A stretch of DNA of 32,353 nt from a virus: IMG/VR virus record IMGVR_UViG_3300027770_000177, positions 1 through 32,353 of that record, one strand, 5' to 3'. Positions 15,423-19,403 of the stretch are shown here, piece by piece. Position numbers and translations under genes: made by a program. Below the pieces are notes generated by a model. The model worked only from the letters and a program-made list of their open reading frames with translations. It ran no database searches and was not told where the DNA came from. Numbering within the stretch: position 1 is the stretch's first letter; every line of letters starts with the position of its first letter.

Positions 15423-15494
15423 ATGATTTTTCTGCGTTGTGAGAGGCGCATAGGGAGTCAGAGAAAACAGTCTTTTTCGGGCTGGTCTATCTGA
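15423..15494 (+). CDS. Possible 23-residue leader peptide
   Basis: A short frame (MIFLRCERRIGSQRKQSFSG then WSI) follows a GGAAGG-like site and fills half of the 147-base gap before the replication gene. It is basic and has no membrane helix. It could be a leader peptide or chance; only the ribosome site supports it. Confidence 0.25.
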   Translation: MIFLRCERRIGSQRKQSFSGWSI

Positions 15495-15568
15495 CCGTTT
15501 CAAACCCGTCAAGGGTGCCGACTTCCCGGAACATCTCACCGGATAGGCCAGCACCGAAGGAGATTGTT

Positions 15569-16312
15569 TTGTTTTATTACCAGTTTAACATTGGCGATTA
15601 CATCAAACACACCTCGCATTTATCCCCGTTAGAGGATATTGCTTATCGCCGGTTGCTTGATAGCTACTACGACACTGAAAAGCCAATACCCAACAATATC
15701 CCACTGGTTTCCCGTAGGTTACGGATTGATGCTGATACTGTTGAAATTGTCTTGCTTGAATTTTTTGAAAAGACTGAAGAAGGGTATCGTAACAAGAGGG
15801 CAGATGTAGAAATTGAGGCTTATCACGCATTCCTTGATAAACAAAAAGCCAATGGAATTAAAGGTGGCAGACCAAAGAATAAACCCACCGATAACCCACC
15901 GTTATCCCAAGCCGAACCCAAAATAACCCTAAACACTAACCGAGAACCGTTAAACGAGAAACAACAACTATTAACCAGTACAAAAACAAAGACAGTTGCG
16001 CAGGGCGCGTGTAATTGTCCAGAAACTGTATCCGAGGAGGTTTGGCAGGATTTTTTGACTCTCCGCCGGGCAAAAAAGGCACCGCTTACAAAATCGGCGC
16101 TACGGGGCATAGAAAAGGAAGCTGGCAAGGCTGGCATCGAGATTGAAGCGGTTTTACGGGAATGCTGCGCTCGAGGCTGGACCGGATTTAAAGCGGATTG
16201 GATGAAGGGAAAAGCTGAACCGTTTAGCGTAGGAGCTGCGACCCGCAAGATTCTGGAACGCGAGCTAGAGAAAGAGGCTCGATTAATAAACCCGTGGGAG
16301 GAAATCCAATGA
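15569..16312 (+). CDS. Replication initiation protein, DUF1376 type
   Basis: A 247-residue protein. The N-terminal domain begins FYYQFNIGDYIKHTSHLSPL and continues EDIAYRRLLDSYYDTEKPIP, the DUF1376 pattern of phage initiators that occupy the lambda O position. A charged linker (KANGIKGGRPKNKPTDNPP) follows, then a helical C-terminal domain (WQDFLTLRRAKKAPLTKSAL, GWTGFKADWM). I chose a TTG start at 15569: it has AAGGAG six bases upstream and matches the usual N-terminus, while the frame's GTG at 15515 adds 18 unrelated residues. Its stop overlaps the next gene as ATGA. The linker DNA contains tandem 11-base repeats that may be the origin. Confidence 0.75.
   Translation: MFYYQFNIGDYIKHTSHLSPLEDIAYRRLLDSYYDTEKPIPNNIPLVSRRLRIDADTVEIVLLEFFEKTEEGYRNKRADVEIEAYHAFLDKQKANGIKGGRPKNKPTDNPPLSQAEPKITLNTNREPLNEKQQLLTSTKTKTVAQGACNCPETVSEEVWQDFLTLRRAKKAPLTKSALRGIEKEAGKAGIEIEAVLRECCARGWTGFKADWMKGKAEPFSVGAATRKILERELEKEARLINPWEEIQ
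15882..15903 (+). repeat. Tandem 11-base repeats, candidate replication origin
   Basis: AACCCACCGAT is followed directly by AACCCACCGTT, and related AACC-containing words continue to about 15950 before an A-rich stretch. In lambda the origin iterons lie inside the initiator gene at the linker between domains, and these repeats lie at the same place in this initiator gene. Only two full copies are present, so the call is tentative. Confidence 0.35.
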
Positions 16313-16791
16313 AACGGTCATGGTCGGTCAGGCTGCACCAAGTTTTTAAAAGTATGTACGCTCAAAAATTCTCGTCATTGTTCAAAGACGAAAGCGAGAT
16401 TGAGGGCTGGATAGACACATGGGCTCAGCTGGATGGCGATGCTGAATCGGTGCAAGCGGCTTTAAAGCAGCTGCCGGTTCAGTTTCCAGACTGGCCGCCT
16501 ACCTTGGGGCAGTTTCAGGCTTTACTGCAAAACAAGCCGAAATTGCTACTGCCGGGTCCCCCTCTTGAGCGCACCCAGCCCAGCGCAGAACAGGCCGCGG
16601 CGCTCGAGAGGGTGGCGACTGCAAAGCTAAACCCGCGGATGCCCTGGTGGACGGTCGACAAAGTGAAAAACCAGCAGCAGGTGGATTTCATCGTGATGCA
16701 GGCTCGGCATTTTGGGGCTGGATCTGACTCAGCGCAGTTTTTACGGAAATGTCAGGACGCAGGGGTTATTAATGGAATGGAGCTGGCATGA
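16309..16791 (+). CDS. Putative replication partner (helicase-loader-like)
   Basis: A 160-residue protein translated from an ATG overlapping the initiator stop, with GGGAGG upstream. It has a helical N-terminal domain (WSVRLHQVFKSMYAQKFSSL), then FPDWPPTLGQFQALL near residue 65, a WPP-containing motif like that in lambda P-type loaders, and a C-terminal helical region (MPWWTVDKVKNQQQVDFIVM). The order initiator then this gene is that of an O/P pair. No ATPase motif is visible, so it is not a DnaC-type loader. The role is inferred from context and the short motif. Confidence 0.5.
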   Translation: MKRSWSVRLHQVFKSMYAQKFSSLFKDESEIEGWIDTWAQLDGDAESVQAALKQLPVQFPDWPPTLGQFQALLQNKPKLLLPGPPLERTQPSAEQAAALERVATAKLNPRMPWWTVDKVKNQQQVDFIVMQARHFGAGSDSAQFLRKCQDAGVINGMELA

Positions 16792-16973
16792 AGTCACCCA
16801 GCCGACCACCGCCCAGCGTTGATTTAGTGTGTTTGCATTGCGGGAATACAAATTTCTTTGTGCGACACACCAACTATTATTGTAAACAATGCCGTAAGAA
16901 ACACGCTCGCAAGGTGCAGTCTGGATCGGGCGTTATCGCAGGGCCGTGTTACCACCGGCAAAACCCACTTTAA
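16788..16973 (+). CDS. Small zinc-ribbon protein
   Basis: A 61-residue protein with two CxxC pairs (LVCLHCGNTNFF, then YYCKQCRKKHARK), a clear zinc ribbon, and a basic stretch behind it that could contact nucleic acid. It overlaps the previous stop by ATGA. Such ribbons are common in early phage operons; the target is unknown. Confidence 0.65.
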   Translation: MKSPSRPPPSVDLVCLHCGNTNFFVRHTNYYCKQCRKKHARKVQSGSGVIAGPCYHRQNPL

Positions 16974-17891: not shown

Positions 17892-18154
17892 ATTCGAACC
17901 ACAACGAAATTGTCAAAGCCTTTAGGCAGCTAGGCTGCTCAGTGCTTAGTCTCGCTTCATTGGGCAAGGGAGTGCCTGACTTACTGGTGGCCGTACACGG
18001 TATCACATGGCTTGTAGAAGTAAAGGCAGGCAATGGTAAGGAAAACGCTCTGCAAACCGCGTGGGGGGCGTCCTGGCAAGGATCAAGGGCATTGGTGCGG
18101 AATACTGTGGATGTGGAATTATTGGTTAAAAGGATGTTGACGAGCAGATTTTGA
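17870..18154 (+). CDS. VRR-NUC type nuclease
   Basis: A 94-residue protein overlapping the HNH gene by 22 bases. It reads DSNHNEIVKAFRQLGCSVLS, then GKGVPDLLVAVHGITWLVEV, then KAGNG. The pattern E...PDL...EVK is a PD-(D/E)XK active site of the VRR-NUC group, with Asp in PDL and Glu and Lys in VEVK. Short stand-alone members are known mainly from phages and probably cut branched DNA. Here it could replace a RusA-type Holliday junction resolvase, as none is seen elsewhere. Confidence 0.75.
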   Translation: MRRAARVDSNHNEIVKAFRQLGCSVLSLASLGKGVPDLLVAVHGITWLVEVKAGNGKENALQTAWGASWQGSRALVRNTVDVELLVKRMLTSRF

Positions 18155-18170
18155 GGGGTTATTCTGTTAT

Positions 18171-18262
18171 TGCGTTGATCTCCTCCGTGAAACGCAAACC
18201 CGCTAAACGGCGACTTGAGCGATGCGGGCGCTCACCCGGCGGTCGCCGTTGCCTTGAAAGGC
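18171..18262 (+). promoter_or_regulatory. Structured RNA leader upstream of the ferritin-like gene
   Basis: The 112-base gap before the 18267 gene holds consecutive stems. Stem 1 pairs TGCGTT (18171-18176) with AACGCA (18191-18196) around a loop containing CTCCTCC. Stem 2 pairs AACGGCGAC (18206-18214) with GTCGCCGTT (18242-18250), nine bases. Inside it TGAGCG (18216-18221) pairs with CGCTCA (18229-18234). The inner loop GCGGG (18224-18228) can pair with upstream CCCGC (18199-18203), or its CGGG with downstream CCCG (18235-18238) as a pseudoknot. Stem 3, GCCTT with AAGGC (18251-18262), covers the AAAGG ribosome site of the next gene. This fits a cis-regulatory RNA. I do not recognise a known riboswitch class. 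Confidence 0.55.
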
Positions 18263-18266
18263 ACGC

Positions 18267-18635
18267 ATGGCTGATGTTGCTGATGTTGCTGATTTTGTCT
18301 TAGTGCTGCTGCATAGCGGCACTAACGCACATCTATTGCACCTCAAAACCGATAGTTATAGCAAACACAAAGCCTTGCAAAAATACTACGAAACAATCAT
18401 CGAACGCGTTGATGATTTTGTTGAAAACTATCAAGGTCGGTATGATTTAATTACCGGCTATTCGTCAGACTATCATCTGCCGATCGACGAGCCAGTCAAA
18501 TACATGACCGGTCTAAAAGATTTTGTCGAAGAATCACGCAAGCATTTACCGCAAGACAGCGAGCTGGTTCAGCTGGTCGACAATATCGCAGAACTCATAA
18601 ACTCTACACTCTACAAACTTCGTTTTCTTCACTAA
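18267..18635 (+). CDS. Ferritin/Dps-like protein
   Basis: A 122-residue, all-helical protein. It begins with tandem MADVADVAD, then FVLVLLHSGTNAHLLHLKTD, SYSKHKALQKYYETI and VDDFVENYQGRY. The spaced H, H, E, D and YQGR residues match ferritin-like phage proteins (DUF5856 type) that resemble Dps. Dps-type proteins bind DNA or store iron and protect against oxidation. Whether this one keeps a working iron site cannot be decided by eye. The AAAGG site lies five bases before the ATG and within a hairpin, so translation may be controlled. Confidence 0.65.
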   Translation: MADVADVADFVLVLLHSGTNAHLLHLKTDSYSKHKALQKYYETIIERVDDFVENYQGRYDLITGYSSDYHLPIDEPVKYMTGLKDFVEESRKHLPQDSELVQLVDNIAELINSTLYKLRFLH

Positions 18636-18837: not shown

Positions 18838-18870
18838 GAAAGCCCGACACTTCTGAGATGCCGGGCTTTC
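18838..18870 (+). terminator. Terminator-like hairpin after the early block
   Basis: GAAAGCCCG (18838-18846) and CGGGCTTTC (18862-18870) form a perfect nine-base stem directly after the 18835 stop. The stem ends in T residues but no long T-tract follows (CTAACC). It may be a weak or factor-dependent terminator or an RNA-processing site that separates the early and late blocks. Confidence 0.5.
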
Positions 18871-18897
18871 TAACCATCGCAATTGGGAGAAATTGAA

Positions 18898-19149
18898 ATG
18901 GCTGAATCTGACATTATAGAAAATTGTAGCTTTTGTCGATTTTTTAGAAATCATCAAATAATGGGAAACTGCAGACGTTTCCCGTTAATGCAGAACAAGC
19001 ACGAAACCGACTGGTGCGGTGAATTTGTCCGTATTGCCGGCATGGAACCGATCCACACCAGTGTGCCGACAACCATCACATTGATGCCGCCCCCACAGCG
19101 TAAACGTGGTCGGCCTGTGAAGGTAGCAGCGGCGAAGGTGGCAGCATGA
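18898..19149 (+). CDS. Cysteine-cluster protein with basic AT-hook-like tail
   Basis: An 83-residue protein with four cysteines arranged CSFC, then GNCRRFP, then DWCGEF. This is a small zinc- or iron-sulfur-binding pattern seen in other phage proteins. The C-terminus has QRKRGRPVKVAAAK, which resembles an AT-hook (RGRP core). I chose the ATG after GGGAGA instead of a TTG five codons upstream. The tail suggests DNA binding at A/T-rich sites; the function is otherwise unknown. It starts the block after the terminator-like hairpin and overlaps the co-chaperonin gene by 4 bases. Confidence 0.6.
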   Translation: MAESDIIENCSFCRFFRNHQIMGNCRRFPLMQNKHETDWCGEFVRIAGMEPIHTSVPTTITLMPPPQRKRGRPVKVAAAKVAA

Positions 19150-19403
19150 TCCGGCCGATGGGTAACAAGGTCGTTGTCAAGCCACTGGTGCGGCAGCTGT
19201 CGAACGTGCTGATTGTTAAAAACACGGAACCCTTTAACGAGGGAACCGTGGTGGCGACAGGACCAAAAGCAACCGAAATATCAGTCGGTGATTTTATTAA
19301 GTATGGTAACGGGGATTATCTTAAGTGGCCGACGCATAATATCGACGGTCAGGATTATCAGATAATCTCCGAAATGGATATTTGTGCAGTCGTAACTCAA
19401 TAA
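19146..19403 (+). CDS. Phage GroES-like co-chaperonin
   Basis: An 85-residue protein aligned by eye to GroES: MIRPMGNKVVVKP at the start, then GTVVATGPKATEISVGDFIK, then YGNG, ending ISEMDICAVV, which parallels the GroES ending SESDILAIV. GroES caps GroEL to enclose folding proteins. Phage versions such as T4 gp31 help fold the coat protein. It is about 12 residues shorter than GroES; the mobile-loop region is represented by RQLSNVLIVKNTEPFNEG, with hydrophobic LIV that could dock on host GroEL. It sits just before a capsid-decoration-like gene and the packaging genes. Confidence 0.75.
   Translation: MIRPMGNKVVVKPLVRQLSNVLIVKNTEPFNEGTVVATGPKATEISVGDFIKYGNGDYLKWPTHNIDGQDYQIISEMDICAVVTQ

Follow-up and report, generated by a model that had tools for sequence, protein, structure and literature searches.

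A pseudoknotted leader RNA lies between the early and late operons in the window (by which is meant the whole 32,353-nucleotide stretch of DNA that was analysed, IMG/VR record IMGVR_UViG_3300027770_000177), and by comparison of relatives, which supports its structure, it is a new RNA family. The conserved core of about 80 bases (18171-18250) is carried by approximately 87 IMG/VR phage records, one of them partial (scans summed, counted by contig name), which belong to P22-like and related phages known from environmental DNA alone. The RNA is of a kind already known, the structured phage leader, and probably acts in cis. It more probably helps the polymerase or the transcript as such than controls the single neighbouring gene. 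Because the first late gene varies while the site stays at the early/late junction, the RNA is judged from gene order to be a part of the late transcript as a unit and not of the DUF5856 gene that follows it in the window. The best explanation, offered tentatively and by analogy with the putRNA of HK022, is that this cis-acting RNA would make RNA polymerase processive on the late operon.

Table 1. Coordinates of the leader RNA and of the features around it in the window.
Feature	Start	End	Strand	Description
Last gene of the early operon	17870	18154	+	94-aa nuclease-like protein; weak PHROG matches to endonuclease and Holliday-junction resolvase
Predicted sigma-70 promoter	18137	18165	+	-35 TTGACG, 17 nt spacer, -10 TATTCT; partly inside the final bases of the preceding nuclease gene
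Full match to family model R1	18168	18252	+	107.8 bits; sole match in the window
P1, 5' terminal hairpin	18171	18196	+	18171-18176 with 18191-18196; 9 compensatory branch events versus 0.5 expected
P1 loop UCUCCU	18179	18184	+	Single-stranded, nearly invariant by column counts
Pseudoknot strand CCCGC	18199	18203	+	Pairs with 18224-18228; all sequences pair
P2	18206	18250	+	18206-18215 with 18241-18250; 7 compensatory branch events versus 0.8 expected
P3	18217	18233	+	18217-18221 with 18229-18233; 9 compensatory branch events versus 0.4-0.6 expected
Small hairpin over ribosome site	18250	18263	+	Covers AAAGG (18257-18261); in part of the family only, outside the conserved element
First late-operon gene	18267	18635	+	DUF5856 protein, 122 aa
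Late operon read from the leader	18267	32353	+	GroES-like, terminase small and large subunits, portal, scaffold, coat, head closure, tail

Structure and distribution of the leader RNA

Taken singly, the sequence has an unexceptional folding energy (z = -1.07; 25 of 200 shuffles fold equally well), and therefore the structure was judged from relatives. The first 17 sequences were aligned to give the model R1, and the alignment was then extended to 63 rows, 49 of them distinct, in which standard pairs occupy 94.9% of the pair cells; slid versions of the structure reach 28-50% pairing. Both sides have changed in 16 of the 26 pairs, with 131 such cells versus 36.6 in shuffles. Together P1, P2 and P3 had 25 compensatory branch events; a tree-aware null, made by re-placing the inferred substitutions, averaged 2.1 such events and never exceeded 7 in 500 simulations. 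An R-scape-like all-pairs test at E 0.05, which is far stricter than the tree-aware null and too conservative at this alignment depth, passes a single pair of the structure (59-74 of P3, E 0.01) and also the off-structure neighbour 61-74 (E 0.045), with P2 pair 50-92 at E 0.14. On these comparisons P1, P2 and P3 are well supported by compensatory change. Most divergent members, when folded singly, again form P1, P2 and P3, and many G-U pairs are kept in the stems. Compensatory changes and stems, which the preliminary description of this DNA had proposed to look for in close relatives, were both found there. Of the three stems that it had drawn, P1 and P2/P3 are conserved with compensatory change and the ribosome-site hairpin occurs in some members only.

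The loop of P3 contains the second pseudoknot strand, GCGGG (18224-18228), for which two alternative partners had been proposed. The three stems, the GCGGG loop and both possible partners are present in the sequence where they had been placed, but conservation extends to the upstream CCCGC and not to the downstream CCCG (18235-18238), at whose position the bulge in relatives reads UCCACAC, UCAAAAC or GGUAAAC. Four of the five pseudoknot pairs are invariant, and the remaining one is CG in 41, UG in 4 and UA in 2 sequences, UA being found in L513 and L520 and also in L515, which is misaligned by a gap; the pseudoknot is supported mainly by this perfect conservation together with the CG/UG/UA series at one pair. 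The spacing in nearly all rows, 1-2 nt before GCGGG and 0 nt between GCGGG and the 3' strand of P3, fits the short crossing loop and continuous stack that structural reasoning leads one to expect of a pseudoknot. The CTCCTCC noted earlier in the first loop is real, and its UCUCCU is the only longer unpaired stretch that is nearly invariant, most other unpaired positions varying while the stems are kept.

Members of the family were collected with two proteins as bait. The DUF5856 protein retrieved 80 loci from IMG/VR. Where the DUF5856 proteins are near-identical (L002-L012), the leader is shared and compensatory changes in it are evident; the more distant DUF5856 homologues inspected do not have it. 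A DNA pattern built from the L002-L012 leaders matched upstream of quite different genes, and the matches of the last pattern scan were mostly genuine members. Because collecting by pattern skews the pseudoknot toward CCCGC/GCGGG, the upstream protein c13 (102 aa, its gene closing the alternative early module) was taken as an unbiased bait, and the RNA was found directly behind c13 in 62 of 80 loci. At L517 and L518, the loci behind c13 have degenerate leaders that have kept a promoter-like sequence and a short P1-like hairpin and have lost P2/P3 and the pseudoknot.

The earlier proposal of a new structured phage RNA motif of no known class holds for what is now a pseudoknotted family. None of the 4227 families of Rfam 15, riboswitches and ribozymes included, gave a covariance-model match at the gathering score, nor was any match obtained with the element at E up to 10 or with nine divergent loci at E up to 1, and nothing resembling the leader RNA is described in the literature searched. 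A DNA search of GenBank phages found no match to the RNA, nor was it found in two near relatives; a pattern scan of genome contigs for a host returned chance matches only, and 401 genomes from the family to which an Acidovorax genome belongs gave no match. An integron attC site and a hammerhead ribozyme were considered by eye and dropped. An intrinsic terminator or attenuator, that is, a GC-rich hairpin with a U tract, was rejected, P2/P3 scoring above 0 in none of 48 members. The 112 bases described earlier as a gap between genes, 18155-18266, are crossed by a 50-codon open frame (18151-18303), which was rejected as a small protein on the grounds that the insertions and deletions of relatives are not multiples of three.

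The junction of the early and late operons

The promoter predicted upstream of the RNA looks constitutive and of sigma-70 type. Promoter sequences across the leaders are of several unrelated kinds and have the same geometry: in 54 of 59 leaders the -10 box of the best match ends exactly 5 nt ahead of P1, and in 49 of 59 the spacer of that match is 17 nt long. From standard spacing, the transcript is predicted to start at the first or second base of P1.

Gene maps of the window and 12 related records place a single RNA site in each genome, always at the early/late junction, and in the window the late operon runs from 18267 past the end without a second copy of the leader. Upstream of the RNA are two unrelated early modules with few genes in common, one with primosomal protein, NinB and Ref-type nuclease and the other of the c14/c13 type; the 94-aa nuclease-like gene of the window is exchanged in most relatives for an unrelated 102-aa protein. 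The late modules downstream have at least three terminase families, and in 54 of 58 loci terminase or portal is encoded within 3 kb; the other four have DUF5856, two of them also ParB-methyltransferase genes, and terminase is absent from the stretch covered. First genes after the RNA are of at least nine different kinds, among them DUF5856 of two types, a 637-aa protein, a 97-aa protein, ParB-methyltransferase and terminase small subunits. From the end of P2 to the first start codon is 15-26 nt in most members, and 61-84 nt where a terminase small subunit is the first gene.

Several smaller observations concern the same region. In L513 (3432-3520), L519, L522 and L527, the 61-84 nt between the RNA and the terminase start hold repeated AGTGAGC / ACTTACAAATGTTAGTG words, a stretch that may be a terminase binding (cos/pac) site. 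The second late gene is followed by an inverted repeat that resembles a terminator, AAAGCCCG...CGGGCTTTCT (18841-18872), whose U tract is weak. Within the late operon, a GroES-like co-chaperonin gene (19146-19403) is close to the DUF5856 gene. Early operons of both module types encode a small zinc-ribbon protein whose C-terminus has the conserved motif GSGVIAGP (16788-16973 in the window, 15427-15666 in G003). In G001 (loci L266 and L267), slightly different copies of the RNA are near both contig ends (positions 54 and 35199), which we read as a circular mixed assembly; further contigs likewise break at the RNA, probably as an element common to coexisting phages.

The protein of the first late gene in the window matches Pfam DUF5856 and PHROG 858, annotated as a "starvation-inducible transcriptional regulator". 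Its predicted model is all-helical at moderate confidence (pLDDT 78.6) and matched Dps and 14-3-3 only at E 0.6-3, with Dps at about 0.7, so that the label "ferritin-like" given to it earlier is weak and a ferritin-like fold is possible on the model. In the alignment of DUF5856 proteins (A3), the histidines H16, H22, H25 and H34 are invariant together with acidic residues, which suggests a metal site.

Possible functions of the leader RNA

To our knowledge, few cis-acting RNAs make RNA polymerase processive, and HK022 putRNA has been studied best. In the proposed mechanism, the element would be the 5' end of the late transcript in P22-like and related phages: the sigma-70 promoter immediately upstream would fire, the first 80 nt would fold at once into P1 with its UCUCCU loop and the pseudoknotted P2/P3 stem with the PK helix, and the folded RNA would remain on RNA polymerase, which would then be less prone to pause or terminate along the lengthy late operon. 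The RNA would thereby take over the job of the Q antiterminator protein in lambda-like phages. The compensatory changes of P1, P2 and P3, the fixed promoter geometry, the single site at the early/late junction and the variable first gene count for this explanation; the closeness of the first ribosome site behind P2 in most members counts against it and leaves room for a role in translation. No Q homologue was found in the RNA-bearing genomes with PF06530, PF03589 and a home-made Q model, which have low sensitivity for distant Q. Isolated relatives of the c13 gene that do not have the RNA have a Q-annotated gene downstream of it, as the next annotated gene in MW202481, the second gene in Venkman and several small genes later in PBR31; these annotations are weak by Pfam, and the Q models are themselves weak at this distance. 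Relatives in IMG/VR without the RNA also have no recognisable Q directly after the upstream gene. Intrinsic terminators early in the late operon were sought and none was convincing, the matches being coding-region noise, and strong downstream terminators were rejected as proof of antitermination. Because the Q models are weak, these RNA-less relatives show no Q at that place and no clear terminators were found, antitermination is put forward only tentatively and two rivals are kept beside it.

One explanation, considered unlikely, is that the leader protects the late mRNA and aids its translation, the 5' hairpin and pseudoknot blocking 5'-end-dependent decay and the compact fold keeping the ribosome site open. 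Stabilisers of this kind, 5' stems, are established in bacteria, and the promoter geometry would put P1 at the extreme 5' end with almost no unpaired nucleotides, in keeping with which the stems are retained amid variable unpaired positions and P2 stops shortly before the first start codon in most members. A plain hairpin would suffice for this purpose, however, whereas the near-invariant UCUCCU loop and the conserved pseudoknot imply a specific partner, and the start codon is far off where the terminase small subunit is first. In a further reading, which is distinctly less likely, a phage or host protein such as an N/Q-like antiterminator or late regulator would bind the RNA, recognise it by the UCUCCU loop and control the late operon. 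Conservation of the loop and its location at the start of the late operon agree with a protein-binding site, and the small zinc-ribbon protein is in the early operon of 10 of the first 13 records mapped, but at 26 of 39 RNA loci the 3 kb upstream yielded no copy of it. This protein, c10, was accordingly rejected as an obligatory partner; moreover, no recognisable antiterminator gene was found in the RNA-bearing genomes, and the two early modules have few genes in common.

The preliminary description had proposed a riboswitch or translational switch of the DUF5856 gene, in which GCGGG would change partners and the last hairpin would mask the ribosome site. The sequence of the window allows both pairings and the masking hairpin, but neither the alternative partner nor the hairpin is conserved across the family, the first gene behind the RNA is of at least nine unrelated kinds, the start codon lies 61-84 nt away in several members, other DUF5856 genes, including those of distant homologues of the 18267 protein, do not have the RNA, and P2/P3 is an intrinsic terminator in 0 of 48 members. 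The gene-specific form of such a switch is largely refuted, and a switch of the DUF5856 gene as a whole is very improbable. There is similarly little likelihood that the UCUCCU loop mimics the anti-Shine-Dalgarno sequence of 16S rRNA and pairs with ribosome sites in cis or trans: its core is complementary to AGGAGA, and GAUCUCCUCC of the window looks similar to the 3' end of 16S rRNA, but the loop is conserved even without a ribosome site nearby (L513, L520, L522), and nearby ribosome sites, judged by eye, do not covary with it. A DNA element, either a packaging site or a boundary sequence for the exchange of modules among phages, would explain a position exactly at the junction of exchangeable modules and upstream of the terminase genes; the many G-U pairs kept in the stems and the fixed orientation and promoter distance fit RNA instead and make a DNA element highly unlikely.

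Comparison with known systems

The place of the RNA between the early operon (NinB, Ref-type nuclease) and the late operon, with a single late promoter, is that of lambda pR' and Q, but the lambda leader ends in a terminator, whereas here there is a conserved RNA structure instead and a recognisable Q gene was not found. EAR (epsC) RNA and other cis-acting antitermination leaders are likewise structured, at the start of a long operon and not bound to one gene; they differ in architecture and host group, and the RNA of the window has no Rfam match. The phage motifs manA, wcaG and c4 of metagenome surveys are similar in their comparative discovery and their phage or aquatic origin, but none of them matches in Rfam 15 and they are located at other genes (PMC2864571). 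HK022 putL, of about 70 nt and two stem-loops, begins at nucleotide 2-3 of the transcript, and putRNA, which needs no phage protein, acts on RNA polymerase at terminators at a distance of 10 kb; the paper on put structure does not mention a pseudoknot (PMC9378689). This is the closest parallel in place and architecture, both RNAs having approximately 70-80 nt and two stem-loop domains without gene-specific context, and both being at the 5' end of a long phage operon transcript, which for the leader described here is by predicted start only. HK022 putRNA belongs to an early promoter, whereas the leader described here belongs to a late promoter and has in addition a pseudoknot and the UCUCCU loop. 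Antitermination in cis without a phage protein, which putRNA performs via the beta' zinc-binding domain, is for this leader proposed by analogy. A search of the HK022 genome with the R1 model gave no convincing match (best E 3.7), so that neither sequence nor model similarity to put was found.

An RNA that is unrelated to put and widespread at the late promoter throughout a phage group would be a good candidate for another processivity RNA. It is more doubtful that the RNA is a late antiterminator by itself, a self-sufficient pseudoknotted RNA that replaced Q and rides RNA polymerase through the whole late operon; if true, the principle of putRNA would have arisen a second time, in an unrelated RNA and for late genes. 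Even if it merely stabilises or opens the late mRNA, the family, with its pseudoknot and near-invariant loop, was undescribed until now, and it raises the question of whether an 80-nt RNA is able to replace Q.
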